From the NCBI RefSeq assembly GCF_040183065.1, contig NW_027185499.1, positions 930,001 to 994,000 on the forward strand: 64,000 nt of DNA, written 5' to 3'. Each line of letters opens with the position of its first letter. Within the stretch, counting starts at the first letter, position 1. The notes under the pieces were generated by a model, which saw only the letters and a list, made by a program, of their open reading frames with translations, was not told the origin of the DNA and made no database searches. The position numbers and the translations under genes are program-made. Source of the DNA: Periplaneta americana (Eukaryota > Arthropoda > Insecta > Blattodea > Blattidae). Shown in pieces: positions 2,501 through 62,062 of the stretch.

Positions 2501-5500
2501 CATCCAGAATTTTCTGTCGTGTGGGAGCAGAAAACACATATGTTTTGAAGTGATTAATAGCGAAAGAACTTAGATTTCAAATCAGTACTTTTTCATCTTA
2601 ACCAGCGCAGACTGGCTTCCGTGAATGCAAGTCAATCTACTTTACAATGCGAGCAAACAGGCAGGTCTTCTTGGGTCCCGCCTGGACCGAGCTTAAAAAA
2701 CCCGGGCTGAATGGGCCAGTCTTGAAAGTTAACATGCTTTGTAGGTTCATCGAAACTCAAGTCAGACGACAGGCTCTTACGGGCGCGAGACTTTGTGATT
2801 TGCCGGTGTCTATTTTCTATAGGTTTCATTCGAAGTGCAATAGCCGTGTCTATTTTTACTTTAATATTGCAGAACTTTCGATCACAAATCGAACGAGTGG
2901 TCGCAAAGATCTGTAGCTGCTCTCCATGCCGAGATATTATTGAAGTAGGCATGGCGGCAAAGCTAATGTTATACGTAATTTCGACGCCCTCATGCTCACA
3001 GCGAGGGGTGGTGACGTCATTGGATGTGGTCGCAGAAGTTACATTGGTTCATGTCCTAAGTATTAATGATATTAGCATTCGATTGTGGTTTCAAGAGTAG
3101 TTACAGTAAGTACTTGAAATAGTCACTATTTGTGTCACTATTGATTTCGGAACGGATAGCCTAGCCTGCATTTCTTCGCTCAATATGAATCGGCCACATT
3201 GATGGCAAAAGCGAAATTAATGACTTGTTGTATCCAATTTGTTCTTCTGAGCAAAACATGACAAGAGGTGCTCTACGCAAACTGCTCATGAACTATTTCA
3301 AAGGCAAATTATACAGGTCAGTTGTTGCTTTGGCAGAAGAATTTATGCTAAATAGTCACCATGCTTCTATTACAATCTTAAAAACGGCGAAGTTCATATT
3401 GAAGGAGATAAATGAATTGTGAACTATTTTGCTAGTAATATCAATATAAAATATTCAGTTTAATACTTTTCTTTTCTTAGAACCAAGATTTTGTTGTGTA
3501 CTGTCGTGCTGTGAATTTTATATTACTACAAGTTACATTTTGCTGCTAGGGCATGCATCCTATTTTATTTTGCTACTTTTCCGTTACTCGCCCGGTATAA
3601 ATTAATATATTGTGATTGTTCTTTATATTATAAAAATAACGGATTTCGCAATATGGCTGTAGACATAATAAAGTAATTTAATTTGGCTATAAACACAACC
3701 GACATTTCAACGCTTCAGGGCTATGCATTCTGAATAAAACATAGTTATATTTTATGTTAACGTCAACACGCAAAAAAATAACGACATTAAATATTGTGAG
3801 AATGGACACAGTCTATTATATACAGTCATTAAGCTCAAAACGTAGTAAATATGCATCCACAGATATATCCTAACCACTAGTTTCGCTAAAATCGCCTCAT
3901 TATAGACAATGCGAAATATTACCGGCACAGTCTATTGTTCCTAGACCCTCACAACTCACGCTGCGTGATTGTATTTCCTAGACTGTGGCATTGATACATA
4001 CAGTGGTGCACCCAAGGGGATATTAAAAGTGCTCTGGTCAACCCAAATTGAGAATGGGGAAAGGAATAAAAGATTGTAAGAATAAATAAATAAAGTTATT
4101 AATTTAATTAAGTGTGTGTGTATATATTAATTAATAAATGAACAAATAAATTAATAAACAAATCGGTAGGTAAGTAAATAAATAAATACATAAATATATA
4201 AAGATGGAAAGAGGTGCTATGAAGGATTAAATTACCTTACCGTCTTACTTTTTGTTACTGTAGGAAGTGTGTGTTTGAAAATTAATATGTAAACACGCCA
4301 GTAGGTGATTAGATTTTTCTACAACAGACTGTAATTTTGAAAGACTCGAACTTTCCACAATATCTGAAGTTGTGTTAACTTTTATTTGGAGCGTGGCTAC
4401 CAGACTTAACTCTTTACACAGACAAGCACATTTAATTGACAATGTCTGTACTTCTCAAAATATCCTAGTTTTGCGTAGGGGTTCCGATATACAGGTCTAA
4501 TGCTGGTCCATATCAATGACATTGGTTATAAATGACTTTCCCACCCCATATTTTAGGGTGCACCACATGCCTGCACAGACACGAACGATCATCCAACCAG
4601 AATGGGGGGAAACGCGTGGTAAACACGTTAATGGCCAGAGTGTATTAAAACGTTACGGTATCTGTAGCAGACTGATTATGAATTGACTTTCCAAACCATA
4701 TGTCTAGATGTACCTATGGAAACAAATAAAGAATAGTAAAAATAAACTCACCCTTACTTCAAAAACCCAGGGCGGTGGGGGCCGCTTCAGTTGCACTTTG
4801 TCGGGCGCTCTAAAGGAAAGAAATGACAGTATATAATAAATTAATGTCATTAAATAATTTTTATAGACAGGAAGTAACAATAATTAGATTCATGCCGCGT
4901 TGAATATAAAATATATTTGATCGAAATTTGGACTTCTCGCCCGCTGATGTCTGATGCAGAACACACAGCTCAAACAAAATGAATTAAAAAATAGAGGTCA
5001 CTACCTGAGCCGTGTGTCATCATCTGTGGCTCAATGAACGAGAACAACATCAATTCGATATATCATTTATCCAATCGATTAACACTGTAAACCAAGAAGA
5101 ATACAGAATCATTAACCCTACGGAAAAAAACATTTAACGACACATCAAGAGATGGTGAAAAATGCTTCATCTGTAAAAGGAAAATTGCCTAAACCGAGCA
5201 AAAACTAACGGATGATTGTGATGAATATGAATCTGAAACTTGCTGAAGATGGCAGAGAGAAACGCATGAATACAATGACAAAAAAGTTCTCATCATCACG
5301 TAAATAAGTAACTGGTAAATTTACAATTATTATTAATTAATCACTAATGTAGAAATGTAACCTTAATTTGTATACATAATGAACAGAAAAAAAGACATAG
5401 GCTACTTAGTATGTAATCTGAATTATTTTTTCTAGCATCAGACTGTATGTCCCCCTTCAACCTATTCCCAGACTGTGGGTCCTACTACAGTGTGTGGCTG

Positions 5501-5846
5501 AGTTCTCGGATACGAATACATTATTTAAGCCATATTAGACAGTTGAATATCAATTAAGACATTAAGAATAATCCCTGTCGCACCAGCAAATGAAGTTCTA
5601 GGGCCAATCTTCAGGCTGTTGGGATGACGTTCACTTGCTTGCAGAGAGGTTAACGATCATCCAACAAGTATGGGAGTAACGTGCTTACGTAATACAAATA
5701 TTTGCAGGGAGTGAACAAAAGTATTCATAGCACCAATCAATCACCCTACTAAGTCCGCGATTCTAATTCTTCATTCCTATTCCTTTTCAAATTTTATAAG
5801 ACACTCAACATTATCATATACGCCTACAAAAATATTGGCACATTTG
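2372..5846. repeat. Tandem array unit A1 (3475 bp)
   Basis: First of the 3.5-kb units, anchored on the block GGTCTATCTGCCGTTA. The equivalent anchors lie at 5847, 9350 and 12854. A1 is the most diverged of the four over its first 500 bp, and nearly identical to the others after that. It carries minus-strand cassette A at 4752-4809. It also carries an old reversed SINE core around 4585-4640, containing ACGATCATCCAACCAGAATG. Confidence 0.9.
4752..4809 (-). other. Putative minus-strand mini-exon, type A, copy 1
   Basis: Read on the minus strand, a pyrimidine tract (TTTCTTTCCTTTAG) precedes a 58-nt interior that ends at GTGAGT. An alternative AG two bases further in would give 56 nt. The only frame without a stop reads APDKVQLKRPPPPWVFEVR. 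A second possible donor, GTAAGG, lies inside the 3' end. The flanks align with the other cassettes (types B-F), while the interior shares only a CCCGAC-like start. Splicing is inferred from sequence alone and the host transcript is unknown. Confidence 0.5.
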
Positions 5847-8800
5847 CAAGGATTAGGGCCTATCTGCCGTTATTTCTTGAGTCACATACACTTTGGAGAA
5901 AAATGAAATTTGTATTTATCTTATTGTATTATGAAATTCTGTAGTGGAACAAATTGTAAAAATGTATTTCTTTAACCAAGAATTTTCTGTCGTGTTGGAG
6001 CAGAAAATAAGATTTTTTGAAGTGACTAAATAGCGAACGAACTTAGATTTCAAATCAGTACTTTTTCATCTTAACCAGCGCAGACGGGCTTCCGTCAATG
6101 CAAGTCACTCTACATTATAATATGAGCAAACAGACAGGCTTTCTTGGGTCCCGCATGGACTGAGCTTATAAAACCCAGGGTCAATGGGCCAGTCTTATAT
6201 GTTGCTTTGTAGGTTCATCGGAACCCAAGTCTGACGACAAGCAGTTACGGGCGTGAGTCATGTCTGATGTGCAGGTGACTATTTTCTATAGCTTACAATA
6301 GAAGTGCATTGTCCGTGTCTATTTTTACTTTAATATTTCAGAACTTTCGATCACAAATCGAACGAGTGGTCGCAAAGATCTGTAGCTGCTCTCGATGCCG
6401 AGATATTATTGAAGTAGGCATCGCGGCAAAGCTAATGTTATACGTAATTTCGACGCCCTCATGCTCATAGCGAGGGGTGGTGACGTCATTGGATGTGGTC
6501 GCAGAAGTTACATTGGTTCATGTCCTAAGTATTAATGATATTAGCATTCGATTGTGGTTTCAAGAGTAGTTACAGTAAGTACTTGAAATAGTCACTATTT
6601 GTGTCACTATTGATTTCGGAACGGATAGCCTAGCCTGCATTTCTTCGCTCAATATTAATCGGCCACATTGATGGCAAAAGCGAAATTAATGACTTGTTGT
6701 ATCCAATTTGTTCTTCTCAGCAAAACATGACAAGAGGTGCTCTAAGCAAACTGCTCATGAACTATTTCAAAGGCAAATTATACAGGTCAGTTGTTGCTTT
6801 GGCAGAAGAATTTATGCTAAATAATCACCTTGCCTCTATTACAATCTTAAAAACAGCGAAGTTCATATTGAAGGAGATAAATGAATTGTGAACTATTTTG
6901 CTAGTAATATCATTATAAAATATTCAGTTTAATACTTTTCTTTTCTTAGAACCAAGATTTTGTTGTATAGTGTCGTGCTGTGAATTTTATATTACTACAA
7001 GTTACATTTTGCTGCTAGGGCATGCATCCTATTTTATTTCGCTACTTTTCCGTTACTCGCCCGGTATAAATTAATATATTGTGATTGTTCTTTACATTAT
7101 AAAAATAACGGATTTCGCAATATGGCTGTAGACATAATAAAGTAATTTAATTTGGCTATAAACACAACCGACATTTCAACGCTTCAGGGCTATGCATTCT
7201 GAATAAAACATACTTATATTTTATGTTAACGTCAACACGCAAAAAAATAACGACATTAAATATTGTGAGAATGGACACAGTCTATTATATACAGTCATTA
7301 AGCTCAAAACGTAGTAAATATGCATCCACAGATATATCCTAACCACTAGTTTCGCTAAAATCGCCTCATTATAGACAATGCGAAATATTACCGGCACAGT
7401 CTATTGTTCCTAGACCCTCACAACTCACGCTGCGTGATTGTATTTCCTAGACTGTGGCATTGATACATACAGTGGTGCACCCAAGGGGACATTAAAAGTG
7501 CTCTGGTCAACCCCAATTGAGAATGGGGAAAGGAATAAAAGATTGTAAGAATAAATAAATAAAGTTATTAATTTAATTAAATGTGTGTATATATTAATTA
7601 ATAAATGAACAAATAAATTAATAAACAAATCGGTAGGTAAGTAAATAAATAAATACATAAATATATAAAGATGGAAAGAGGTGCTATGAAGGATTAAATT
7701 ACCTTACCGTCTTACTTTTTGTTACTGTAGGAAGTGTGTGTGTTTGAAAATTAATATGTAAACACGCCAGTAGGTGATTAGATTTTTCTACAACAGACTG
7801 TAATTTTGAAAGACTCGAACTTTCCACAATATCTGAAGTTGTGTTAACTTTTATTTGGAGCGTGGCTACCAGACTTAACTCTTTACACAGACAAGCACAT
7901 TTAATTGACAATGTCTGTACTTCTCAAAATATCCTAGTTTTGCGTAGGGGTTCCGATATACAGGTCTAATGCTGGTCCATATCAATGACATTGGTTATAA
8001 ATGACTTTCCCACCCCATATTTTAGGGTGCACCACATGCCTGCACAGACACGAACGATCATCCAACCAGAATGGGGGGAAACGCGTGGTAAACACGTTAA
8101 TGGCCAGAGTGTATTAAAACGTTACGGTATCTGTAGCAGACTGATTATGAATTGACTTTCCAAACCATATGTCTAGATGTACCTATGGAAACAAATAAAG
8201 AATAGTAAAAATAAACTCACCCTTACTTCAAAAACCCAGGGCGGTGGGGGCCGCTTCAGTTGCACTTTGTCGGGCGCTCTAAAGAAAAGAAATGACAGTA
8301 TATAATAAATTAATGTCATTTAAATAATTTTTATAGACAGGAAGTAACAATAATTAGATTCATGCCGCGTTGAATATAAAATATATTTGATCGAAATTTG
8401 GACTTCTCGCCCGCTGATGTCTGATGCAGAACACACAGCTCAAACAAAATGAATTAAAAAATAGAGGTCACTACCTGAGCCGTGTGTCATCATCTGTGGC
8501 TCAATGAACGAGAACAACATCAATTCGATATATCATTTATCCAATCGATTAACACTGTAAACCAAGAAGAATACAGAATCATTAACCCTACGGAAAAAAA
8601 CATTTAACGACACATCAAGAGATGGTGAAAAATGCTACATCTGTAAAAGGAAAATTGCCTAAACCGAGCAAAAACTAACGGATGATTGTGATGAATATGA
8701 ATCTGAAACTTGCTGAAGATGGCAGAGAGAAACGCATGAATACAATGACAAAAAAGTTCTCATCATCACGTAAATAAGTAACTGGTAAATTTACAATTAT

Positions 8801-9349: not shown

Positions 9350-12300
9350 CAAGGATTAGGGCCTATCTGCCGTTATTTCTTGAGTCACATACACTTTTGA
9401 GAAAAATGAAATTAGTATTTATCTTATTATATTATGAAATTCTGTAGTGCAATAAACTGTAAAAATATATTTCTTTAATCAAGAATTTTCTGTCGTCTTG
9501 GAGCAGAAAATAAGATTTTTTGAAATGACTAAATAGCGAACGAACTTAGATTTCAAATTAGTACCGTTTCATCTTAACCAGCGCACACTGGCTTCCGTCA
9601 ATGCAAGTCACTCTACATTATAATACGTGCAAACAGTCAGGCGTTCTAGGGTCCCGCATGGACTGAGCTTATAAAACCCAGGGTCAATGGGCCAGTCTGA
9701 AATGTTAACTTGCTTTGTATGTTCATCGGAACCCAAGTCTGACGACAAGCAGTTACGGGCGTGAGTCATGTCTGATGTGCAGGTGACTATTTTCTATAGC
9801 TTTCAATAGAAGTGCATTGTCCGTGTCTATTTTTACTTTAATATTGCAGAACTTTCGATCACAAATCGAACGAGTGGTCGCAAAGATCTGTAGCTGCTCT
9901 CGATGCCGAGATATTATTGAAGTAGGCATGGCGGCAAAGCTAATGTTATACGTAATTTCGACGCCCTCATGCTCACAGCGAGGGGTGGTGACGTCATTGG
10001 ATGTGGTCGCAGAAGTTACATTGGTTCATGTCCTAAGTATTAATGATATTAGCATTCGATTGTGGTTTCAAGAGTAGTTACAGTAAGTACTTGAAATAGT
10101 CACTATTTGTGTCACTATTGATTTCGGAACGGATAGCCTAGCCTGCATTTCTTCGCTCAATATGAATCGGCCACATTGATGGCAAAAGCGAAATTAATGA
10201 CTTGTTGTATCCAATTTGTTCTTCTGAGCAAAACATGACAAGAGGTGCTCTACGCAAACTGCTCATGAACTATTTCAAAGGCAAATTATACAGGTCAGTT
10301 GTTGCTTTGGCAGAAGAATTTATGCTAAATAGTCACCATGCTTCTATTACAATCTTAAAAACGGCGAAGTTCATATTGAAGGAGATAAATGAATTGTGAA
10401 CTATTTTGCTAGTAATATCAATATAAAATATTCAGTTTAATACTTTTCTTTTCTTAGAACCAAGATTTTGTTGTATAGTGTCGTGCTGTGAATTTAATAT
10501 TACTACAAGTTACATTTTGCTGCTAGGGCATGCATCCTATTTTATTTCGCTACTTTTCCGTTATCGCCCGGTATAAATTAATATATTGTGATTGTTCTTT
10601 ACATTATAAAAATAACGGATTTCGCAATATGGCTGTAGACATAATAAAGTAATTTAATTTGGCTATAAACACAACCGACATTTCAACGCTTCAGGGCTAT
10701 GCATTCTGAATAAAACATAGTTATATTTTATGTTAACGTCAACACGCAAAAAAATAACGACATTAAATATTGTGAGAATGGACACAGTCTATTATATACA
10801 GTCATTAAGCTCAAAACGTAGTAAATATGCATCCACAGATATATCCTAACCACTAGTTTCGCTAAAATCGCCTCATTATAGACAATGCGAAATATTACCG
10901 GCACAGTCTATTGTTCCTAGACCCTCACAACTCACGCTGCGTGATTGTATTTCCTAGACTGTGGCATTGATACATACAGTGGTGCACCCAAGGGGATATT
11001 AAAAGTGCTCTGGTCAACCCCAATTGAGAATGGGAAAGGAATAAAAGATTGTAAGAATAAATAAATAAAGTTATTAATTTAATTAAATGTGTGTATATAT
11101 TAATTAATAAATGAACAAATAAATTAATAAACAAATCGGTAGGTAAGTAAATAAATAAATACATAAATATATAAAGATGGAAAGAGGTGCTATGAAGGAT
11201 TAAATTACCTTACCATCTTACTTTTTGTTACTGTAGGAAGTGTGTGTTTGAAAATTAATATGTAAACACGCCAGTAGGTGATTAGATTTTTCTACAACAG
11301 ACTGTAATTTTGAAAGACTCGAACTTTCCACAATATCTGAAGTTGTGTTAACTTTTATTTGGAGCGTGGCTACCAGACTTAACTCTTTACACAGACAAGC
11401 ACATTTAATTGACAATGTCTGTACTTCTCAAAATATCCTAGTTTTGCGTAGGGGTTCCGATATACAGGTCTAATGCTGGTCCATATCAATGACATTGGTT
11501 ATAAATGACTTTCCCACCCCATATTTTAGGGTGCACCACATGCCTGCACAGACACGAACGATCATCCAACCAGAATGGGGGGAAACGCGTGGTAAACACG
11601 TTAATGGCCAGAGTGTATTAAAACGTTACGGTATCTGTAGCAGACTGATTATGAATTGACTTTCCAAACCATATGTCTAGATGTACCTATGGAAACAAAT
11701 AAAGAATAGTAAAAATAAACTCACCCTTACTTCAAAAACCCAGGGCGGTGGGGGCCGCTTCAGTTGCACTTTGTCGGGCGCTCTAAAGAAAAGAAATGAC
11801 AGTATATAATAAATTAATGTCATTTAAATAATTTTTATAGACAGGAAGTAACAATAATTAGATTCATGCCGCGTTGAATATAAAATATATTTGATCGAAA
11901 TTTGGACTTCTCGCCCGCTGATGTCTGATGCAGAACACACAGCTCAAACAAAATGAATTAAAAAATAGAGGTCACTACCTGAGCCGTGTGTCATCATCTG
12001 TGGCTCAATGAACGAGAACAACATCAATTCGATATATCATTTATCCAATCGATTAACACTGTAAACCAAGAAGAATACAGAATCATTAACCCTACGGAAA
12101 AAAACATTTAACGACACATCAAGAGATGGTGAAAAATGCTAGATCTGTAAAAGGAAAATTGCCTAAACCGAGCAAAAACTAACGGATGATTGTGATGAAT
12201 ATGAATCTGAAACTTGCTGAAGATGGCAGAGAGAAACGCATGAATACAATGACAAAAAAGTTCTCATCATCACGTAAATAAGTAACTGGTAAATTTACAA

Positions 12301-17429: not shown

Positions 17430-17640
17430 TCGATATAGCTCTAGAGCAGAGAGAGGGACACGTAATCCGAGGCTGGGTTCAAATCCCGCTTGGATTCATC
17501 GCCTGGTTGAGAAGATTTCTCCAACTTCAAGATGAACGTCAGGTAATCTCATGGCAAAACCTCGGTCTCATTTCGTCAGAATACTCTACCACTGTCACTA
17601 ATTTCATGAATTTTAGATAAATAATCGATTAAAATACTTC
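17430..17640 (+). mobile_element. Degraded tRNA-derived SINE
   Basis: A B-box-like GGTTCAAATCCCGC is followed by CGCCTGGTTGAGAAG. This is the same order as the GTTACCTGGTTGAG module of the better-preserved SINEs at 30045-30301 and 32022-32245. The later part (AAACCTCGGTCTCATTTCG) also matches the 32-kb copy. No clear target-site duplication was found. Confidence 0.5.
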
Positions 17641-17686
17641 GATTCCTCTCGAATTGCGAGTTACAGGCTATACCGCTTTCTCTCAG

Positions 17687-17961
17687 TTGAGCACCTGCTG
17701 GCGCTGTACAATTCTGCCAGTATAGCAGCGCTCTGCTCGACCGACACGTCAGATATGGCGTTGCGTTTCTTGTTGCTAGTGCACCGTCAAGTACTCGAGA
17801 CAGTGCCCTACAGCTCGGCGCTAGCCGCCGTTATGATGCCCACGCTCGTGCTGTCTGCCTTCTACAGGACCTTCATCGACTTGTTCGTCATGGTGGTCAG
17901 CGTCGCACTGGCCAGCAGGTTCCGACAAATCAACAAGAGCCTGCGGGCCAGCAGGGAAAAG
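17687..17961 (+). CDS. Sugar-type gustatory receptor, exon 1 of the visible part
   Basis: The frame reads through MALRFLLLVHRQVLETVPYS and on to FIDLFVMVVSVALASRFRQI. This matches the membrane segment and following loop of insect sugar receptors (Drosophila Gr5a/Gr61a/Gr64 clade), which are multi-pass ligand-gated channels in taste neurons. The start is chosen at the TTTCTCTCAG acceptor; the frame is open from there. The Met at 17755 is internal and not a likely translation start. The exon ends at AAG, followed by the donor GTGGGT. The next exon needs a different phase, so there is a one-base mismatch: either a small exon is missing or there is another lesion. Earlier exons were not found. 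Confidence 0.7.
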
Positions 17962-19103
17962 GTGGGTCACTTATCCACACATAATCTATTTATAGTCCGC
18001 TTTTAATGAATTCGGAGGAACATATCACCACCCAAAAGAACTAGCGGTGAGCAATTATTTTATTTCATCTTAAACCTGGGCCAGCTAATCCTTCGAAGAT
18101 TACGAGTAGTATTAATTCTCGCTCCGGTCGTGTTACGAACGCTGCGTACAGCTAATTTTGGTGTATGGGGCTGCCACCTTACTGTCTCCAAGCTTGCAGG
18201 GTCTCTATTCGTGTTACAAATACTTCACAGGTTGACTTCCATCTCTTTAGAGTTGCTGCAGGGATGAATTACTAATGGGATTCAAAATGCATAACTTTCT
18301 TGTTTTCTTACGTCGTTATCTATCGAAGCTGTATCAATTACTGAGTTATTTGGCGTCGATGAACAACGATCGAGAAAACGAGACTAACAGCGCCCGCAAA
18401 GCCAAAAACCCGCACGACAATGTTGGACTGGTTGTGAGTCTTCCGAGACCCGATATTGATCAACTCCCGAAGTCAGCAGTTGTTTATACCTGACTGAACT
18501 TTTATCTACTTTGGCAACTGTTGCATATGTATGAACAATCAAGTAGCCTATTTGAAACATCATCTCTACCTTTCAGTGTATAATAATCCGTTCCCCAATC
18601 TTTATTTAATTACAAGGCCTTATTAAAAGGCTAGGAATTTTCATTTCAAATGTTTAAGATCAAGTGTGCAATCTCAAGTAAAAAGATAATAACGTTATGT
18701 TTTATGTTTCTTAGAAATGCAAATTTATTTCAGAATTGGTTTTTTTTCTATTTATATAACCATAGGTAATATATAATAGAACCAGAACATTTTGATAACT
18801 AAGATACTGTTCTGTTTTGTCTTTTTGTCTCATTTAAACATTTATAATGTTATATATTTCAATGATGTATGTCATTCAAAATTACGAAATCTTTCCACGC
18901 CGACCAAATGCTATTTCGAGAATGATGAGCGAGACTTGAAGCGCACGAGAATGACTTGCCGAGACTCGAAAGACAAATGTAACTAACACAGCGAACGAGA
19001 GCGGCAGTTAGTTTTGTTCATCTCTAGTTCAGTCACATTGTGGAAGAATACAGTAAGATGAATCTGCAGTTAATTAATTGCCGTATTTTATGTTAACTAT
19101 GAA
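17962..19103. other. Receptor intron 1, left part
   Basis: Intronic sequence after the GTGGGT donor. The open frames at 18275-18493 and 18792-18986 have no domain or compositional support and are taken as chance. Confidence 0.5.
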
Positions 19104-19437
19104 TCCTGCCTAGGACTCGCGTTACGGAATGCGCGCTGGTTCGAGTCCTCATGGGGGAAGAAATTTTCTCATGAAATTTCATCCAGTGTATGGGACCGGT
19201 GCCCACCCAGCATCGTGATGCACTTGGGGAGCTGCGATAGGTAGCGAAATCCGGTTGCGAATGCCAGCTATAACGACTGGGGGGATCATCGTGCTAACCA
19301 CACGATACCTCCATTCTGGTTGGATGATCGTCCACCTCTTCTTCGGCATGTGGGCGTGAGACCAGCAGCCGGCTGGTCGGTCTAGGCCCTCCACGGGCTG
19401 TAGCGCCACGGATTATTATTATTATTATTATTATTAC

Positions 19438-19488
<51 letters not shown>
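19104..19488 (+). mobile_element. Young SINE with (ATT)n tail and 15-bp target duplication
   Basis: It is flanked by perfect direct repeats, TATGTTAACTATGAA, at 19089-19103 and 19489-19503. The head has a B box (GGTTCGAGTCCTC). The body contains TCCATTCTGGTTGGATGATC and the tail is about 80 bp of ATT repeats. The same body, old and reversed, is recognisable inside the minus-strand cassette array, for example near 4585, 37970 and 63350. The intact target duplication and tail show that this copy is recent. Confidence 0.88.
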
Positions 19489-19491
<3 letters not shown>

Positions 19492-19503
19492 GTTAACTAT
19501 GAA

Positions 19504-21109
19504 GTTTCGATTCAACTAGCTGTGGTAAGTGTGGCCTAATATGAACAAAAAGGAACGTCGGCTTCACTCAGAACAAAATTGATTGCGTAAAATTCAAGCT
19601 GTAGGTCTTAGTGACGTGTAACGGCAAGGAAATTAGAATAGTAATCATATGAAGCTACTTCTCTGGCTACCGTTTCACAGATGACATCATAACATTACAG
19701 ACAAATGACAAAATGATCAGAGAATTCTCCAAATACGAATTCTTGAGACGCAGAAGATGCCGACTACCCACATGAGATATGGGCGCGAAACGATTGAACT
19801 TTTTCTGGGAAAATGTCTTCAGCTGCCATTATAAGAGCTAATGTAGAAATTTATCTTGCTTCCACCTCTTTTGTTTAGGAATAACAAATTACTCGAGGAG
19901 TCTAACAGCGCACCAAGTGGCACCACGTGCATAAAATATGTCCCCTCCTCCTTCTGAAACTAACAAATTTAATTTAAATCAAATAATATAGATTTTTATT
20001 CTTCCCATCTTCCATTGAAAATTCACATTGGAACCAATTGGGACAATGATTGACTAACCATGTAGCTTTCACGTGGTGATTTCTTTCTCCCTCATTTTCT
20101 CTCTCTTGGCACATACATGAAAAGAGCTGATGTCTAAGGATAACATGAATTCCAGTCAGAAGTAATTAAATAAGCTAAGCATGAGGGGATTTACCAGCTA
20201 TACAGTCAAAAAGCTTACAATTATCAAAAGCTTACCTGTAAAACATAAAGTGTATGGACTACCAACTCTATGACTTTCAAGAATATCCAACAATATCTTT
20301 GAAGTCTTCTCTTCCACGTAACAACACCATGAAACCGATCAAACACCTGCTTCGAATTAACGTTCCCGATGAACATATAACGTGTCAAACTTACCGTCAC
20401 TGCCTCGCCATAATGGCAGATGAATGTGTAATTACGTCATAAATTTAGTAAATTTGAACAACACATTAATCAAAATTGCTACACACGATTAAAATTAACG
20501 AAACCTTAACCACTGATTGCCAGTTGCTGGATGTTTGCGCGAGGAAACGTTACACAAGCAGCGCACTAGGGCAATTAAAATTCGATTCCAGTTACAAGCG
20601 AATTCCCACCCCCTCATATGGGTAAGCTGCTATAATTGTAGTTTAATTTGTTGGTTGATTATATAATTTTATTAATGAATTTATTGTTTCAGGGATATCT
20701 TCGTGCATGATCTTAAGCTACCGATCTTTTTTAATCGTGTGTTTAAACTACCGAAAAAAAAAATGATTTCTAATTTGAATTCCTCTAAGAAAAACAGCTA
20801 ATATCTAAATCTTTGTAATGAGGTCATCGTAGGGAAATTCTGCCTATTCATAGGATGGTATGTTAAGTATTAATTTAGTGTTATTCCTATTAACTAAAGC
20901 GATTTTATATACGTAACACTAATTAATCGCCTTAATACTCGCTAGGAAGCTGTTAATGATTTCATGTACAAGTCTCTTTTCAAAGTTAAAATCCACAGCC
21001 GATAGTAATTCCCAAATAGGGGGGCAAACTTCCGTAGGTCCTATGAACATATGTTTCATAATTCACATCTATGCAAAATACAGAATTTGAGATGCAAAAA
21101 TAGCATTGT
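19504..21109. other. Unassigned intronic sequence
   Basis: No domain, tRNA-like box or terminal repeat was recognised. There are several A/T runs. Confidence 0.4.
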
Positions 21110-21330
21110 GTAATTATCCCTCGACGAGCCACAGTAGATTCTCCAAGTGTTGCCCATGGCTCTCAATGTATGCGGTCACACGTCGCACGATACTTTTCAG
21201 ATGCCCTCAGAAGTAAAAAAAGTAAATAGGGTTTAGATCTGGTGACCTAACCGGCCATACAACAGGACATCCTAGCCCAATCCATCAGTCAGGGAAAATG
21301 TTTTTCAAATAATGGCAAACGATTACATAG
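21110..21330 (-). pseudogene. DDE-type transposase remnant, C-terminal part
   Basis: The minus strand reads WIGLGCPVVWPVRSPDLNPI, then a stop, then GHLKSIVRRVTAYIESHG. The pattern 'WP-RSPDLxP', 15-20 residues, 'GxLK' is typical of the third catalytic region of IS630/mariner-like transposases common in arthropods. There are in-frame stops and no termini could be assigned, so this is a dead fragment inside the receptor intron. Confidence 0.6.
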
Positions 21331-23051
21331 AAGTGAGATCGAATTGCATCACTCATCAACAACATGTCTAGTCTACTACAAACGATACAGAGAAACAACG
21401 CACTGCGAAGGCACTTTCACTGATACGATTGCTGATAATGACTGAAATCGTGAAGAGGAGTATTGATATCTACCTCGGAAAAAATGCGCTTGAATCATTT
21501 CCCTGTCTAAAAATATGGGGTAAGTTACATCCTGTTCACCTGAGAAATGGCATTTAAGTTGCATTTTCTAAGTGTACGTATGATGAATTACCCGACATTT
21601 GTTGTTATGGATATGAGACATTGGTATTCACCCGACCCGATATTTTTACGATACACGGCGATGCATATTATGCTTCAATGCTCGTACACTCGAATGCATT
21701 GATATTCGGAAGATGTAAACAAAAGTTCTCTTTCTTCCCAGAGCATATCCATACATTGGGAAGGGGTGTGGTAGGTTGTTTATACGTTTTAGACCGTACG
21801 ACAATCATTGCACTCTCCGTATGACCTTCTCTGATGACCCAGCACTATAAAGCTAAGGCATCTATCCCACTTACGTTCTCTGCTAGGTCTACTACTCAGA
21901 AGCTGTTTATCTCTATTGCAATGATGGAACTGAAGACAAAGTAGGCATATTTTATTTTGTGCAACGATAGAACTAATAATATTTGTGGATCTTCTCCTTA
22001 GTTCAATTGCAATTATTTGTGTAAAATGAAAAAAATTATACAGAGTGTAAGAGGTATAAGTGCCGTCCTTTTCACAGTCGTCGGGGACAGTCTACAGGAT
22101 CAAAAAATGTCCATACAACATAGGATCAAAACTTGATAGTTTTCCCAGAAAAAATATTTCTTCTGTTTTTATTCGCATTATACTGCTTATATAGTTAGTA
22201 AAATTACGAAAACAATTACATCAGTAGGTATATCTAGCAAAGAGTTAATATTACTTTAAATAGATATTTGTGTGTTCTATTATGTTTTCGTGAAATTAAA
22301 TAAAATTTCATGCTTAAATTTGTTACTATTCTGGCGTGAGGGACATGGCAACGTGTTCAGCAGGCAGTACTCTGCACAGACGTACGTACGAGTCAGCTGA
22401 GTTCAAGCTCCCTGTGCATAGGTCTACTGCCGAGCGGATGGCAGTTTGGTACCAGGTATTCGATAAACAACTTACCATTACATTCAAAGTTTAGGAATAT
22501 CATATGTTATTAATTTATGGAGAAAGTCGTTGTAATTCAAGTGAGGCAAGAAGATGTACCGTCAATGTTTTCCGCAATGAAGATTACCTAATCGGCGAAC
22601 TTTTGTAGCGATTTCTCAACAATTATTACAAACTAGGAGTCTCTTACCTCGTTTCGAAAATCACACAAATAGAAATTTCTTTAAAATGGTACTGCTTTAT
22701 GGAAGCGAGCGATATTAAAATGTTGCATTTAAAAAAAAAGTCCGTGTGATTTTGTGCAGTAAACCTTTATTGTTTATTTTTTAGACGTATAATAAAAATG
22801 GACCAATATTGCCAATATTGTTAAATAAAATAGAAATTTACTATAAAGTTATATTAAGGAGATTGAATGTTTGTATTTGCTGTTCGTTTTATGTAAACAA
22901 CGGTCCGCCCCTTCATTAGAACAGAGCACCTGTTTTGTACCGCTATGTCTGTATCCGCTTGAGCTGTACCTTGTGCCTGTAAACTCTCTCCTCCTCATCC
23001 AGCAACGTTGCCAAACGCCTAATATTGTAAACTTTAATAATTAGATAAATA

Positions 23052-23537
23052 TTGCAATTAGAAAAAAAATTGTGCCCGAAGATTGAAATTTTAGCACACG
23101 TCTTGGGATTCTATGAACAGGGATTGCTCTTGAAGAACTCTAGACATCATCTTGGGAGATCCAAAATTGCTGCCGCATTAAGAAATAAGGGCTGGATTGT
23201 AGAAGAAGAAATATCCTGTCTAGCTGAAAATGGGTCAACAAGACAAGTAGATATTTTAGCGTACAATGCTGACACTAAACAGGGCATCATTGTGGACCCC
23301 ACGATACGTTTCGAAGTAGGATGTCATCAGTCAGTCCAGGTCCACCTTGAGAAGAAGTCGATCTATGAGCCTACAGTCAACTATTTCAAGCTGAATTATG
23401 CCTTAATTCATGTTGAAGTATTCGGCTTGCTCATAAGTGCTCGACGGACTATACCTGCTTTTTTCGAAGAATTTCGACGGCATTTTTCTCTACCAACATC
23501 TCTGAGGGTTGACATTGTGATACCAAATCCGAATTAA
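23052..23537 (+). pseudogene. C-terminal restriction-like endonuclease domain of a non-LTR retrotransposon
   Basis: The open frame of about 160 codons has no ATG at its start and looks 5'-truncated. It contains NSRHHLGRSKIAAALRNKGW, then EEEISC, GSTRQVDILAYN and IIVDPTIRFE. The RHH element, the VD in a strand and a later acidic residue resemble the PD-(D/E)XK endonuclease tail of retrotransposons such as the R2-type group. It is followed after 100 bp by AGGGCTACCCACAATGGGG and a TTA repeat, as expected for a LINE 3' end. The clade assignment is tentative. Reverse transcriptase is absent. Confidence 0.55.
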
Positions 23538-23688
23538 TCACATGGTGCCACATTAATAGCAATTGTAATTTTTCACGCCCTTTTCTTTGTTTCCCTTCTT
23601 TAAAATTTAATATCTATGTTTACATATGTATAACAATTTTTTTTGAGTATATACTGAGTCCATAAGGGCTACCCACAATGGGGAGCAG

Positions 23689-23690
<2 letters not shown>

Positions 23691-23742
<52 letters not shown>
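23691..23742. repeat. (TTA)n microsatellite
   Basis: A pure TTA/ATT repeat forming the tail of the preceding retrotransposon fragment. Confidence 0.95.
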
Positions 23743-23744
<2 letters not shown>

Positions 23745-23986
23745 ATGAATAATCATCAGTTAAAACAATGACACTTATACCCCTTACACCTTGTATAAGA
23801 GGAGTACGAAGGGAACTACCACAGCGCAGTTTAGCCTAGGCGGACTTTGCAAAAAGAAGAAATTCAAATAATTACATCTTACTTTTAAAAACTTTTCTCC
23901 ATGCATTTCACTAGCAATGGAAAACGTTTAATTTCTGCTCTTCTCAGCAATCAGTATTACTTTCCTGTGATTCATAGCAATGAAAC

Positions 23987-24239
23987 GTCCACACCTGTGG
24001 AATAACGGTCAGCGCGTCTGGCAGCGAAACCAGGTGGCCCGGGTTCGATTCCTGGTTGGGGCAAGTTACCTGGTTTGAGGTTTTTTCTGGGGTTTTCCCT
24101 CAACCCAATATGAGCAAATGCTGGGTAACTTTCGGTGCTGGACCCGGACTCATTTCACCGGCATTATCACCTTCATCTCATTCAGACGCTAAATAACCTT
24201 AGATGTTGATACAGCGTCGTAAAATAACCCAATAAAATA
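23987..24239 (+). mobile_element. tRNA-derived SINE (family 2) with 11-bp target duplication
   Basis: Direct repeats AGCAATGAAAC flank it at 23976-23986 and 24240-24250. The head has GGAATAACGGTCAGCGCG (A-box region) and GGTTCGATTCC (B box). The body contains GTTACCTGG and TTCGGTGCTGGACC, and the tail is CCAATAAAATAA. A second copy lies at 30045-30301. The insertion ends only about 100 bp before receptor exon 2. Confidence 0.88.
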
Positions 24240-24343
24240 AGCAATGAAACATTAATTTATGTTCGTTCCCTCGTAGGATTGTGGCGGTCACAATTGTGTA
24301 GCATTCAGATAGAATGTTAACTATTACTCACCACTCTTGGCAG

Positions 24344-24504
24344 ACGATGGCGGCGGACGGCCCGCGAGGGTTACAGCGACCTGTCCTTCCCTGTCCTTCC
24401 TCACCAAGCAGCTGGATGCGCGGGCCTCGGCCCTCGTGCTGCTCTCCTTCTCCTCCAACCTCTACTACATCTTACATCTGCCAGCAGCTCTACAACAGCA
24501 TGAC
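24344..24504 (+). pseudogene. Sugar-type gustatory receptor, exon 2, broken by two tandem duplications
   Basis: The acceptor is TTGGCAG. The exon encodes the cytoplasmic region and membrane segment seen in sugar receptors: a start like WRRTAREGYSDLSF, then LTKQLDARASALVLLSF, SSNLYY and CQQLYNSM. These pieces lie in three different frames. CTGTCCTTCC occurs twice in a row (24381-24390, 24391-24400) and TACATCT occurs twice in a row (24466-24472, 24473-24479). Each exact duplication shifts the frame. The donor GTTAGT follows at 24505 and leaves phase 2, which fits exon 3. Everything except the duplications looks like well-kept receptor sequence, so the damage is recent or is an assembly error. 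Confidence 0.75.
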
Positions 24505-24587
24505 GTTAGTACCTAGAGATTGGCCTCCAACGCTTGACGCAATGCGACGGTGAAATTTAGACTATCTCTTATTATTTAATAATTGTC

Positions 24588-24658
<71 letters not shown>
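24588..24658. repeat. (ATT)n microsatellite
   Basis: A pure ATT/TTA repeat of about 70 bp, lying between receptor exon 2 and the LINE fragment that follows. Confidence 0.95.
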
Positions 24659-24660
<2 letters not shown>

Positions 24661-24662
24661 TT

Positions 24663-25278
24663 TATGAAGAGGTAGAAAAATCAAATATCTTGGCGCAACA
24701 GTAACAAATATATATAAATAATACTCGGGGGGAAATTAAACGCAGAATAAATATGGGAAATGCCTGTTATTATTCGCTTGAGATGCTTTTGTCACCTAGT
24801 CTGCTGTCAAAAAATCTTAAAGTTAGAATTTATAAAACAGTTATATTACCGGTTGTTCTGTATGGTTGTGGAACTTGGACTGTCACTTTGAGAGAGGAAC
24901 AGAGATTAAGGATGTTTGAGAATAAGGTTCTTAGAAAATATTTGGGGCTACGTGGGATGAAGTTACAGGAGAATGGAGAAAGTTACACAACGCAGAACTG
25001 CACGCATTGTATTGACTTGACATAATTAGGAACATTAAATACACGTATGGGCGAATCCAGAAATGCACATAGAGTGTTAGTTGGGAGGCCGGAGGGAAAA
25101 AGACCTTTCGGGAGGCCGAGACGTAGATGGGAATATAATATTAAAATGGATTTGAGGGAGGTGGGATATGATGATAGAGACTCGATTAATCTTGCTCAGG
25201 ATAGAGACCAATGGCGGGCTTATGTGAGGGCGGCAATGAACCTCCGAGTTCCTTAAAAGCCAGTAAGTAAGTAATTAC
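24663..25278 (+). mobile_element. Non-LTR retrotransposon 3' fragment (end of reverse transcriptase ORF)
   Basis: It encodes KYLGATVTN, then EIKRRINMGNACYYSLEM, KTVILPVVLYGCGTWT and LRMFENKVLRKYLG. After a gap it continues with GRPEGKRPFGRPRRRWEYNI to MNLRVP and a stop. This is the C-terminal end of a LINE reverse transcriptase ORF, closing with AAAAGCC and GTAAGTAAGTAA. About 30 bp that code for the RRLRWAGHVA segment in other copies are missing near 25040, and a frame change separates the two halves. The clade is not assigned. Confidence 0.8.
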
Positions 25279-25700
25279 AGACGTCTGAGATAGGCATAGC
25301 AAGTAGCACGTATGAGCCAATCCAGAAATGCATATAGAGTGTTAATTGGGAGACCGGAGGGAAAAAGACCTTTGGGGAGGCCGAGACGTAGATGGGAGGA
25401 TAATATTAAAATGGATTTGAGGGAGGTGGGATATGATGATAGAGACTGGATTAATCTTGTACAGCAGTAGTGTCAGAGTTGTAAGCTCCAAAACCGGTTG
25501 TGGAGCTAGAGAGTGCAGTCGGAGCGTGAATTTGCTTATGTCTGTGGAAACACCGGAGCACGCAACGGTCATAGTGGAGCGCTCCGCTCCGTTTAGTCTC
25601 TGCCTGACAACGCTGTTGTACAGGATAGGGACCGATGGCGGGCTTATGTGAGGGCGATAATGAACCTACGTGTTCCTTAAAAGCCATTTGTTAGTAATTA
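25279..25700 (+). mobile_element. Second LINE 3' tail, split by a hAT-type MITE
   Basis: It repeats the last 230 bp of the preceding fragment, from CAGACGTCTGAGATAGGCAT through RPEGKRPLGRPRRRWEDNIK. The match stops at 25464 and resumes at 25616. Without the insertion and one copy of its duplication, the reading is NLVQDRDRWRAYVRA. Confidence 0.8.
25465..25615. mobile_element. 151-bp hAT-type MITE
   Basis: Flanked by the 8-bp direct repeat TTGTACAG (25457-25464 and 25616-25623). Its ends, CAGTAGTGTCAGAGTTG and (reverse complement) CAGCGTTGTCAGGCAGAG, are imperfect inverted repeats. An 8-bp duplication with CAG ends is typical of the hAT superfamily. There is no coding capacity. Confidence 0.85.
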
Positions 25701-25703
25701 TTA

Positions 25704-25740
<37 letters not shown>

Positions 25741-26239
25741 TATTATTATTTAACGAAACTGCATCAACTGCGAGGTTGTAAATACAGCTTCGATGGAATT
25801 GGTGATGCCGATACGAAATGGAATTTTGACAACATGACTCAGAGGATTATATATTGTATTACCTGACGTTCGCTATACAGTTCAGAGAAGCAAACAAACC
25901 TATCGGCCAAGCGAAACTCGAATCGCTTGCGAAACCAATCCAGGTTGGCAGCTTCTTAATTGTTATCTTGAAAATTTAAAGTTGACGGAAGAATAATTCA
26001 TTTATTTACTTGTTTATTTACTTATCAATCACTCGAGCAATCAATCCGTCAGTTTGTCTCTGCCTGCCTACCTACTTACGCTCATCCATCTATCCTTCCT
26101 TCGAAACATCTATCCTTCTGTTAGCCAACAGCTATTAGCCAATAATAAATTATTTCAAAACAAGCAATGCATCTCTTCTCTTGCGATAATTGCGGCGCCA
26201 TTTTCCCATTTTTGGCGCTGTGCAGGTTTTTAATATCTT

Positions 26240-26299
26240 CGGAGCCACCGGCGTGGCTCAGTCGTTAAGGCGCTTGCCTGCCGCACAGTGTGCAGTAAT
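26240..26299 (+). mobile_element. Head of a family-3 SINE
   Basis: CCGGCGTGGCTCAGTCGTTAAGGCGC matches, in reverse, the head of the SINE at 52418-52654. It is cut off by the Foldback-like element that starts at 26300. Confidence 0.55.
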
Positions 26300-27213: not shown

Positions 27214-28086
27214 GTTCTGATCCTCTGTGCGTTTGTTAAGGATAGATAAAAATGTGTCCAATGTATTTTTAAACTGATATTCCTTATCATGTGAATAATA
27301 TTGTAAGTCTAAAACACTCTCACAGTGATCAAAAACTTCCTTAGTCAATGATTCTTTTCTGCTGTTAAGCCAAACATGAAATAGTTACCGTATGTCCCAC
27401 CACTGAAAAAAATAGTTACATATAAATGCGCAAGAACGCGCAAACTTTAAAACAAGGATTCAACACTATAAATGCTGCTGTATTAAATGGTGAAGGAATT
27501 GTTGTAACCGGACGTGACCGGCTATACTAAAACTCACATTATATCTGGAGAACTTTAAAAACATAAGTTTTTCAATTGTAATGTAAACCTACTGTAAGAA
27601 GGAAAATATTTTATAAACTTGTAATTGAAGTTACTTTAGTAAGAACGTACCTATTATGAACAAATTCCATGTTTCACAACACAATAAATCACTAACAATT
27701 GGCTCTCTCTGTCTACGACTGAACCGGAGCTAGACGTGTTAGGAAGAACTCAAAGTTTATACCCTTCTAAATATAGTTTGCCGCTGATAAATCAGTAAAA
27801 GCTATTACTTATAACCAGGCTTAGAGACTTTAGACCCGATAGATGAAAACAGTGCGATTTCAAGTTGGAAAGCAGGACGATAGTGGGAGGGGGCAGTGAT
27901 GGTAGCGACCTGCCTGTCGTCCCATGTGCTTTATTTACTCAGTCATACTCGTAAGGCAGGGAGAGGAGGTACTGTTCTGATAATAAAAACAGTCCCGTAC
28001 ACCTAGTTCACTTCATGAGAAGAGAGGACAGGAGATAGCTAGTAGTCTAGTTTTTATCTGTGCATCTATCTGATTAGTCTAAGAAT
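27214..28086. other. Unassigned intronic sequence
   Basis: No gene or element recognised. There is a GC-richer patch around 27890-28020. Confidence 0.4.
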
Positions 28087-28154
28087 ATACAGTGAATGTA
28101 AAAAGTATTCGCACAACGATGTTTTTATTACAAATTGAACCTTAAATGAAGTAT

Positions 28155-30301: not shown

Positions 30302-30315
30302 ATCCGTTACATCAT

Positions 30316-39447: not shown

Positions 39448-39496
39448 CAATATATGGCACCTGGAGGGCAGCAGGCTTTCCATGATCTTGTCGGGG
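39448..39496 (-). other. Putative minus-strand mini-exon, type B, copy 2
   Basis: Interior and splice signals are identical to B copy 1, exactly 2769 bp away. Confidence 0.55.
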
Positions 39497-42216: not shown

Positions 42217-42265
42217 CAATATATGGCACCTGGAGGGCAGCAGGCTTTCCATGATCTTGTCGGGG
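42217..42265 (-). other. Putative minus-strand mini-exon, type B, copy 3
   Basis: Identical to copies 1 and 2. Confidence 0.55.
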
Positions 42266-44422: not shown

Positions 44423-46878
44423 ACAACATTTAATAAGGAATATTTTAATTTCGAGGGGGAGAATGATCACTGTGTTGTCTGTTAGGTAAAGTAAGAATAT
44501 CAGAGTAAGATAAATGCAGAGATAAGTATTCAGTTTAAACGATGTTTGTCTTGGGGCCATAATAACTTGAATGTCACAACGATATTAGATAAAATGAAAG
44601 TGTTTTGAAAGAAACAGTGACAAAACCACGGGATCGAAGCTCGAAACAAGTTCATATATCCCCGTTCAAAGAGAAAAGGAAAAAGAGGCATTGCATTTAC
44701 GTGCCTTATTTTAATATTTTGGTAATTATGTGACCTTAAAAATATTGAATTTCATGCAGGCTTGTGAGTGAGTAGAATTTTACAACAAAACCTTGTTGTA
44801 AAAAGTTAACTTTTGGGCAAAGTTCGAAGGTCTGTGACTTTAATTATGGAGCGTGTCTATTAGCCCAAGACATTCCCACCAGCCAATCATATTCAATAAG
44901 GCGAAATATTATTCTCAGTGCATCCAATCCTTGCGTGTGAATAAAGTTAAAAAACTTTAATTTTCTTCTGTAACAAAGATTAAGAATAGCCTTCCCAAAT
45001 CATGTTTAGTTATACCAATAGAAACAAAGAAAGAATTGTAAATATAAACTCACCTGAAAATACCAAGATTCGGCGGCTGTATTGTGTCGTGTAGGGGCTT
45101 TGAATAAAAGAAATGAGAGCCTATAACAAACTGAAGTCATTAAATGGTTTTTATACACAGGAAGTAATGCTAATAAGGGGGATGCAGCATTGAATATAAT
45201 ATAAATTATACGTGATCGAAATTTGGGGTTTATGCCAGCTGATATCGAAGTGATGCAGAACACATTGCTGAAACTACACGAATTGGAAACAGGGTTCATA
45301 ACCTGACCCGAATATAATTATCTGTGGATCAGTTAACGAGAAAATGATGGACAATTGTTAGGATACGATTATCTCTGAAAACAAAGAAAAGTGCAAATTA
45401 ATTAACCCCTAGGAAAAAAAGAATTTAACGACACATCAAGGGATGGCGGAAAATACTTGATCTGAAAGAGGTAAATTGCCTACACCGTGCATGAACTAAC
45501 AGATGATGATGCTGATGATGATGATGATGAATATGAATCTGAAACCTACTTAAGATGGAGATGAGAGACACATACATACAGAGACGAAAAACTCTCACCA
45601 TCACGTGAATAAGTAATTGGTGAATTTACAATTATTATTAATTCATGATGGTGTAAAATGTAAGTTCAATTTGTATGGCCAATCAACACAAAATAAAAGG
45701 TGTTTAATACGTAGTCTGAGTTATTTCTCTCAGATAAAGTGTACCGGTATCAGTTCTACAATCAGACTGTATATCCCCGTTCAATCTATTCCCACACAGT
45801 AAGCCCTACTACTGTGTTTGGCGGAGTTATCGAATAGCAATACTTTTCCCTAGCCATATTTGACAGTTGAATATCAAATAAGACTTAAGAGTTCCGTGGC
45901 ACATCAGCTAATGGGATCCAACGGCTAATCTACAGGCTGGTGGCGTGGCGTTTACTTACTTGGGCAGAGGTTAACGATCATCCAACAAGTAAGGGAGTAA
46001 CGTGTTTTTCAAAACGATGATGCCCGCAGTCAATTAAGACTTCAATACAATCATTTGTAGAGAGTGAACAGAAGTATCCATAACACAAATCGATTACTCT
46101 GATAATTCTGCGATTCTACATATGTGTTCAATTTCCAATTATTTAAGACACTAAACATTAACATATTCGCAAACAAGAATATAGCAAACTATACCTGATT
46201 TGTAAAGACACTAAAATCCTTTCCTCAAAATATCCCGGTTTCCTCAAATACTTTCATCAACGTTGCACATTAAGTTAACATTTTATTTTCATTTCGAAAA
46301 CGCAGAAAATATTAGTTAATACACATCTCTGATTTTATTTCCTCCAAACTCATCTTCGTTTCTGAAGATTTTCAAGATCACTTAGGTTGTCGCAACATGC
46401 ATATATACTTTTTCAGTGGCCCGTAGCGAAATGCTTCAAAAGCGTCTGTGGAATAAACACTGAATCACCAAAAAATTTGGAAAAAAATTAATTTATTGTT
46501 AAGACCAGTGTCCTATTCAGAAAGAAATTGTAAACGAAAGTCCGTGCAAGTTTGTTTAACACAACAATTTCGTAATGCTTGGCTATATTTCCTGAAATCG
46601 ATTCCTGATTATGTAATATAGGTAAGTTTATGACACGACACTTCATCAATTGCTAGGGTTACGTAACGTCTCAATGAAATGAATGTGATAATGGATGCGA
46701 AATGAATCCAGAGCCCATCGTCGAAGATTATTCAACATTTACTCTTTATGGGATGAGGGAAATCCCTGAGAAAAAAATTCAAGCAGGTGGAGTAATCTGT
46801 CCCAAGTCGATTGGATCCCGAACCCGCTCGTTCACGATGAGGTTGCGCAACAACTGTGCACTCATATGATAAAAAGTC
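44423..46878. repeat. Diverged array unit C (2456 bp)
   Basis: It follows the block order of unit B from ACAACATTTAATAAGG onward, without the LINE tail and with many substitutions. Cassette C lies at 45054-45097. Confidence 0.85.
45054..45097 (-). other. Putative minus-strand mini-exon, type C
   Basis: Minus strand: CATTTCTTTTATTCAAAG, 44 nt, then GTGAGTTTAT. The acceptor is AAG instead of CAG, still usable. The frame equivalent to type B reads PYTTQYSRRILVFS; all frames are open. Confidence 0.48.
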
Positions 46879-47452: not shown

Positions 47453-47499
47453 CAAATTTAGCACACAGATTGAAGCAGACACATACTAACATGTCCGGG
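47453..47499 (-). other. Putative minus-strand mini-exon, type D
   Basis: Minus strand: CAATTTTTTATTTACAG, 47 nt, then GTGAGTTTAT. Only one frame is open, PDMLVCVCFNLCAKF, and it has the same phase as the conserved frame in type B. Confidence 0.5.
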
Positions 47500-50144: not shown

Positions 50145-50591
50145 TAGACAGTATATGCGGGACAACTTAAGGAAAAGTGAAGTTCTTTCGTATCAGAGTA
50201 TATGGCACTTGCCGTGTCGTCCGTCTTTTGTGTACCTGGCGAGTAGAGCAGCGTACAGAACGAAGGGACCCCGGTCCGTTCATAGTAACATTTCAACGCA
50301 ATGTGTGCAGTTGTGTTATCCTGCAGGATAGGCGAAGACGCTTCAGCTTCGACAACTTACGAGACTATATCGTCGTTTACTGCAACGCTAGTAATTACAT
50401 CAATGAAGACGAGGGATGAGCTACAGTACGTCATTTTTCTTTTCATTCTGACTGTACAGAGATGCAGTAGCATGTTGACGTCGTCTGTTTACTTTAAAAC
50501 CTGTTCAGCCAATGGTCTGAATGAAAAAATTTTAACATATGGTAAATGTGCACCTACATTCAACGATAAGTCATCCCGCATCCGCTGTCTA
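50145..50591 (+). mobile_element. 447-bp non-autonomous hAT element
   Basis: Flanked by the 8-bp direct repeat ATAATCAC (50137-50144, 50592-50599). Its termini, TAGACAGTATATGCGGGA and (reverse complement) TAGACAGCGGATGCGGGA, are good inverted repeats. It contains a transposase scrap, LQDRRRRFSFDNLRDYIVVY, from the hAT dimerisation region. Confidence 0.9.
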
Positions 50592-50599
50592 ATAATCAC

Positions 50600-50649
50600 C
50601 ATCACTTAATAAGGGGAGAACGGCGACTTCGCCTGCGTGTGTTGGGCAT
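50600..50649 (-). other. Dead minus-strand mini-exon, type G
   Basis: Lies where the cassettes of the other units lie. Minus strand: CTTCTTTCCTTTACG in place of the expected acceptor, so the AG is lost. The interior contains CCCAACACACGCAGGCG and ends at GTGATTAT, a weak donor. That donor is the duplicated target site of the adjacent hAT. Confidence 0.5.
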
Positions 50650-51054: not shown

Positions 51055-51099
51055 CGTTACTTAAATTATGCGGCGGCGGTTTTCTGTCATAATCCGGGT
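51055..51099 (-). other. Putative minus-strand mini-exon, type E
   Basis: Minus strand: CGTTTCTTTTACTTACAG, 45 nt, then GTGAGTTTAT. Only the frame that skips two bases is open, PDYDRKPPPHNLSN. The PD start and proline run resemble type A. Confidence 0.52.
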
Positions 51100-61775: not shown

Positions 61776-62022
61776 TACAATTTTATCACATCTTCATTCA
61801 AAAAGCTCAAGATTTTGATAATGTTAGAAGATCTGTAACTTTTACTTGAAATGTGTTTAATAGCCCCAACCATTGAATCATTTTCAGTGATGCCGTCTGT
61901 ACTTCTCAGCACATCCGCGCTTCACAGCTATAGCAAATACTGATTACGGTTAGTCCCCCCACCAAACCATATTTCTAGGTGTGTCACTGGAAACAAATAA
62001 ATAACGGTAAATATGAACTTAC

Positions 62023-62062
62023 GTTATCGTCAGCCTGATGTTCCGGCCTCGGTGATGTAGTG
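62023..62062 (-). other. Putative minus-strand mini-exon, type F
   Basis: Minus strand: CTACTTTTCTTTACAG, 40 nt, then GTAAGTTCAT. The donor sequence differs from the usual GTGAGT but is equally good. Two frames are open, one reading TTSPRPEHQADDN. The flank TTTATTTGTTTCCA after the donor matches cassettes A and E. Confidence 0.48.

Follow-up and report, generated by a model that had tools for sequence, protein, structure and literature searches.

How can a row of very short segments lie between readily aligned splice signals while the segments themselves differ almost to the level of chance? The question is raised by a stretch of 64,000 nucleotides from the cockroach Periplaneta americana (C18:930001-994000, hereafter the window), in a genome of 3,231,669,367 bases in 91 contigs. 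The assembly, PAMFEO1_priV1, is given in its report as 3.23 Gb in 91 scaffolds, of which 17 are chromosomes (PMC12774602); C18, with 3.78 Mb, is probably an unplaced scaffold. It is proposed here, from order, junctions and borders in the DNA, that the cassettes are likely to be consecutive exons of one long minus-strand micro-exon gene, joined in series after its stop codon.

The cassette array of the window

The initial annotation had placed ten minus-strand cassettes in this stretch, and all ten were confirmed there, with splice-like conserved flanks and interiors of 40-58 nt. They belong to only six types, A and B each being present as three recent tandem copies, so that the ten do not count as independent. 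Identity among the A units is 96.6-98.1% over about 3.3-5.4 kb, and among the B units it is 97.6-98.5% over 3.2-6.0 kb. When the first AG is taken as the start, the interiors measure 58 (A), 49 (B), 44 (C), 47 (D), 45 (E) and 40 nt (F); by the junction in an intron-free locus on contig C7, treated below, A starts 2 bases later and measures 56 nt. The features are as follows, with z values for the match to exons of the C7 locus.

62251..62421, minus strand: conserved intron block upstream of an exon, common to dispersed relatives; coding not supported (by eye)
62023..62062, minus strand: exon F, 40 nt, first exon after the stop-bearing exon K3; z 8.2
51055..51099, minus strand: exon E, 45 nt; z 8.0 and 7.9
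50600..50649, minus strand: relict exon G, flanks found by profile search, boundaries read from the sequence
50145..50591, no strand: 447-bp insert in G, whose ends are inverted; 8-bp target duplication GTGATTAT at 50592-50599 and 50137-50144
47453..47499, minus strand: exon D, 47 nt, identical in 12 of 12 gene clusters; z 14.3
45054..45097, minus strand: exon C, 44 nt, with a weakened acceptor (AAAG); z 11.5
42217..42265, minus strand: exon B copy 3, 49 nt, hypervariable between clusters
39448..39496, minus strand: exon B copy 2, 49 nt
36679..36727, minus strand: exon B copy 1, 49 nt
17617..34857, plus strand: sugar-receptor-like gene, PF06151 matches in 17617-18006 and 34450-34857; the extent is the matched interval only
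11725..11780, minus strand: exon A copy 3, 56 nt long from the C7 junction or 58 from the first AG; z 6.3
8221..8276, minus strand: exon A copy 2
4752..4807, minus strand: exon A copy 1

The donor of exon C reads ATGAGT in the C3 and C21 copies compared. Relict exon G is an eleventh unit, which has lost its acceptor AG and whose donor side is split by the 447-bp insert; the latter looks like a hAT element. No clear partner of G was found among the C7 array exons. A second insert, at about 50690-50925, lies in the flank of G and is MITE-like, with long inverted ends.

Between types, the flanking stretches showed 54-94% identity over the 15 pairs of six types, and interior identity per aligned length was 0.40-0.61 against shuffled means of 0.39-0.45. 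Two of the 15 interior pairs (A-E and B-D) exceeded all 100 shuffles and two more tied the best shuffle at two decimals. The earlier statement that the interiors do not align therefore holds in that they are near chance level, but not in every pair. An identity profile of ten diverged units, five from the window and five from C14, C16 and C26, had a mean pairwise identity of 0.67 and a single deep trough, the exon bin at 0.31; the next lowest bins reached 0.47-0.51, among them a pair at reference positions 780-819.

Two readings of the conserved blocks were rejected. A signal peptide in the upstream block (MMRxF...) was dropped on codon changes without third-position preference (by eye) and on frames that break in C and E; a reading frame in the downstream block (PWFCHC...) was rejected by eye on like grounds. 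Elsewhere in the window, two tRNA-Tyr genes (28247-28318 and 28628-28699, minus strand) lie in a 98%-identical 254-bp direct repeat, and nothing beyond these two was returned by Rfam at gathering score and ARAGORN. A 215-aa open frame at 48113-48760 (plus strand) is LINE ORF1-like by eye and has no Pfam match. A search of plasmid DNA gave no match.

A joined copy and the coding part

The intron-free locus on C7 carries F-E-..-D-C-B-..-A joined at the predicted junctions, in window order and with a repeat of the D-C-B block. When D and C were joined in one query, the match to this locus spanned 90 of the 91 nt, junction included, at 91% and 89%, and the remaining 24 of the 26 matches were single exons. 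With a joined query of K3+F+E+D+C+B+B+A, K3-F-E was contiguous in two copies in C7 (82% and 80%), as was D-C-B (85% and 84%; repeated block 76% and 75%). In one C7 copy, 17 exons were read by hand: 12 match best the expected window type (z 5.1-14.3), in window order with the D-C-B block repeated, exon Z matches D (z 6.6), and for X, X2, Y and Y2 no clear partner emerged (2.5-5.0). Joining at AG and GT with no intron between was thus seen, in this genomic copy alone, for K3-F, F-E, D-C and C-B; E does not adjoin D in C7, nor does B adjoin A.

The C7 exons are mostly 75-93% like those of the window, and hence the source gene may be a paralogue. Since none of five short 3'-side probes for a target duplication recurred on the 5' side, and the A-runs of the locus (A8 and A13) are followed by sequence common to its two tandem copies, we only infer that it is a reverse-transcribed mRNA (a retrocopy). 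One of its exon types, E2, forms about eleven 47-nt tandem repeats with alternating variants, at about 3530-4095 of the reverse strand of C7:43570501-43580500 (counted by eye). A tandem repeat of this kind is what an ancestral intron-free array might look like, with introns inserted later between short repeats in the other loci; this is a highly improbable history, as it requires all introns to have entered their repeats at the identical position, and the exon-intron units are visibly copied as units (A three times, B three times).

The C7 array is preceded by an open frame ending in ...LYHPEIIAVIVAHI NRGHYQIRDKEQTVT VHTSKNITWRCERVVRLF-stop. Three corresponding exons lie upstream of F on C18, given here in window coordinates.

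81517-81473, minus strand: exon K1, 45 nt, AG and GTAAGT borders
69112-69068, minus strand: exon K2, 45 nt, AG and GTAAGT borders
66768-66701, minus strand, outside the window: exon K3, 68 nt, stop-bearing, AG and GTAAGT borders

K1 alone is a weak match (E 0.11), and order and borders speak for it. Between C18 and C7, dN/dS was 0.23/0.67 for K1, 0.18/0.46 for K2 and 0.14/0.23 for K3, small numbers throughout, with dN below dS in all three. K3 is present in 12 of 12 clusters at 94-100%, and its stop is kept in the C18, C3 and C7 copies. Between C18 and C3, K2 showed 9 changes in 45 bases against 14 in 397 of flank (p 2.5e-4), mostly amino-acid changing (7.8 vs 1.2), with length and frame kept; K3 showed no excess (4 in 68 vs 11 in 386). 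No coding exon was found within about 10 kb upstream of K1. On the reverse strand of C7:43570501-43580500, open frames with repeated modules (VEAETNIFRLEATPDGRLHFKKE...) stand before the exon array; these are possible upstream coding exons of the gene, and no Pfam match above cut-off was obtained for four C7 open frames (best 20.5 bits vs a cut-off of 26.3).

Since the stop of K3 is kept and K3 is joined to F, the cassettes follow the stop codon. The preferred reading makes them 3'-untranslated exons of a micro-exon gene that occurs in 12 clusters. The coding part would end in two in-frame 45-nt micro-exons (K1, K2) and the stop-bearing K3, after which the spliced RNA would run on through tandem exons of 40-58 nt: F, E, D, C, the B copies and the A copies. 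By analogy with the joined C7 copy, the array exons of the window locus would enter one mature RNA, and the array is presumed to be untranslated in every isoform. As the exons lie after the stop codon, they probably diversify no protein.

The opposite reading, that the array exons code as alternative exons of the Dscam, bicycle or MEG kind and diversify a peptide in isoforms that skip K3, draws on several features. Types A, B, C, D and F are all open in frame f1; a proline-aspartate pair starts A, B, D and E, though E has it in a different frame; and K2, a coding exon of this gene, evolves fast while staying in frame. Yet no frame is open in all six window types, the lengths leave every possible remainder modulo 3, the exons follow one another in series, and in C7 the exon with the kept stop, K3, runs directly into F. 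A frame as long as the longest one over the C7 array (119 aa) was reached by 14% of shuffles and 7% of exon-order permutations, and is not beyond chance. Protein-coding alternative exons are accordingly an improbable account of the array.

Copies across the genome and change between them

A query of type C found 96-100% matches in 12 clusters: one each on C3, C13, C18, C21 and C23, two each on C9 and C12, and three on C15. In all 12 the K3 and F matches are 4.2-4.9 kb apart, and the clusters are closely similar to each other. Those on C9, C12, C13, C15, C18, C21 and C23 are situated either on small scaffolds or no more than about 18 Mb from the end of a chromosome, the exception being C3 at 49.1 Mb. 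A query of type F found the same 12 clusters and more distant places, with at least 42 matches (best 40 of 182 candidates scored); in 20 regions with F-type matches that were compared, the alignment crosses the exon in 14 and not in 6. Around quite different interiors the dispersed relatives repeat borders such as TTTACAG and GT[AG]AGT, the exceptions being one set with CAGAG and one copy with GTGGGT; they are without the insert of about 250 nt carried by types A-D. The C14 and C26 loci hold several units in window order, and C16 holds one unit.

The sugar-receptor-like gene lies on the opposite strand, in the interval between exon B copy 1 and exon A copy 3. Eleven among the 80 PF06151 matches listed, one exon counted per place, adjoin these clusters or their A arrays (C9 twice, C12 twice, C13, C15 three times, C18, C21 and C23); the one at C15 168.67 Mb is 2.2 Mb from the nearest K3-F-D-C part (170.86 Mb). 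Linkage as a rule was rejected, for among the matches listed there is none at C3 49.1 Mb and none beside dispersed cassettes, and the receptor is therefore taken for a passenger.

Relatives at many chromosomal places are also what an ordinary dispersed transposon family would leave, its interiors varying by chance. For such a family, which had been named beforehand as the finding that would count against exons, interiors should be as conserved as flanks. The units are indeed dispersed, and the C copies do have interiors as conserved as the rest; in B, in the dispersed relative L and between types, however, the interiors are less conserved than the flanks. The interior is the only deep trough of the profile, interiors are joined without flanks in C7, and the C14 and C26 loci keep the window order. 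The transposon reading is largely refuted, and we regard it as barely credible.

The comparison of substitution rates in interiors and flanks, proposed at the outset, gave an uneven result: B and L interiors are far more variable, whereas C, D, E and F are quiet between clusters and A shows only a weak excess. For A, B and C, six repeated window copies were removed before copies were counted. B and B' (copies from C13, C12, C21 and C3) differ at 11-14 of 48-49 interior bases and at 4-6 of 450 flank bases, being 22-29% apart in the exon and about 1% apart in their introns. Among six B haplotypes, chosen as distinct, 15 of 49 interior and 9 of 400 flank columns vary (p 3e-10, a guide only, like the other p values of these comparisons, which treat columns as independent while copies exchange sequence); among 15 copies with full flanks the counts were 15 of 49 and 11 of 400. 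For L, in five distinct haplotypes from eight loci, they were 9 of 43 and 13 of 402 (p 6e-5). At this shallow depth A showed a weak excess (4 of 56 vs 10 of 401 columns, p 0.08, 30 copies) and C none (3 of 44 vs 46 of 400, 9 copies). There is one A-like copy on C3 whose interior has 12 differences from A in 50 bases, and 4 gaps, and whose flanks have 34 differences in 445. Over 16.4 kb aligned, the D-E-F stretch compared with cluster C3 had no 50-nt bin with at least 7 changes. Of six pairs in the M and N sets, two had an interior excess of about twofold, and in the other four the interiors were more alike than the flanks. A second hot spot in the B unit, at 39001-39050, proved to be a 16-nt indel.

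In the B and L sets the variable positions are spread along the exon and do not form one block. The hot columns stop at the splice borders, which argues for selection on the mature RNA rather than a local mutation process, as far as may be judged from sequence. Under the preferred series reading, array exons would be copied together with their introns, so that the array grows by exon-plus-intron duplication, and duplication and exchange among the 12 clusters would keep refreshing it; the exon variants would be kept apart by selection, acting on the spliced RNA or, in some isoform, on a peptide, while introns drift or homogenise. As a speculative and rather unlikely extension, the untranslated tail may be an evolving library in which diversifying selection acts on the spliced RNA itself and not on a protein, as it might in an arms race against small RNAs or RNA-binding factors.

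The exon differences may instead be old, ancestral variants having survived while gene conversion or unequal exchange (segment switching) reset the introns. The gap between exon and intron divergence in B and B' fits this, as do the 12 closely similar clusters, which recent copying or exchange predicts, and the C7 array, which has several B-like variants whose first variable block shows B and B' states (by eye). Conversion tracts would, however, have to end at exon edges on different chromosomes, unless selection keeps the variants apart, and the variable positions are scattered along the exon. Such old variation is a strong rival, with somewhat less than an even chance in our estimate, and we cannot separate it from selection on the spliced product.

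The original proposal was of a minus-strand transcript with a diversifying family of exons, into which the receptor locus is set. Its core is supported by DNA: by order, junctions, the strand of the K exons and the excess in B and L. The parts given up are a single choice of exon in the Dscam style, the exons being joined in series, and protein diversification, improbable after the stop; the diversification itself is uneven.

Comparison with known systems

To our knowledge, exons that change faster than introns are a rare signature, found mainly in toxins and parasite effectors. The cockroach gene, with about ten introns after its stop and 12 closely similar clusters, would add a case in a large insect gene. 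It raises two testable questions, namely what maintains the diversity of untranslated exons and by what means an RNA of this kind evades nonsense-mediated decay or exploits it, for which the intron-free C7 copy offers a ready junction map for primers. Judged by titles and the starts of abstracts, the literature searched holds no description of the array, which may nevertheless be in print.

In Dscam clusters one exon is used per transcript and the exons code protein. Here F, E, D, C, B and A are joined in one C7 locus, in series after the stop, although other isoforms are possible. The likeness lies in the tandem exon duplicates with divergent interiors that are described for Dscam (PMC3364881).

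The bicycle genes of gall aphids are an insect family whose members average about 17 exons, with many small internal ones, and whose coding sequence changes fast, almost all internal exons being of one phase (PMC9168663). The likeness lies in the small exons and the fast change; the bicycle micro-exons code and share one phase, whereas the array here shares none.

The introns of snake venom genes change less than their exons. Accelerated exons, and short exon segments switched to unrelated sequence, are reported for these genes (PMC2711939, PMC2474615), and both traits recall the array. The venom exons code toxins, whereas the present exons appear to be untranslated and form arrays of one short exon.

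Exons of the MEG type have lengths that are multiples of three. This is true of K1 and K2 but not of the array, where among the six window types only E complies. For schistosome micro-exon genes, exon sizes of 3-81 bp, introns as long as 5 kbp and secreted products are reported (PMC10526429), together with high variability (PMC10399815). Many very short exons between long introns and high variability are shared with the known part of the present gene. Over about 77 kb this part comprises 10 intact exons of 40-58 nt, the in-frame K1 and K2 (45 nt each) and K3 (68 nt); the 5' part of the gene was not found. The differences are that the longest array stands after the stop, that its lengths are not multiples of three and that the host is a free-living insect. 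The array exons fail the frame features, and the gene is at most a candidate member of the MEG or venom systems; it works like the micro-exon genes and resembles the venom genes in the fast change of its exons.
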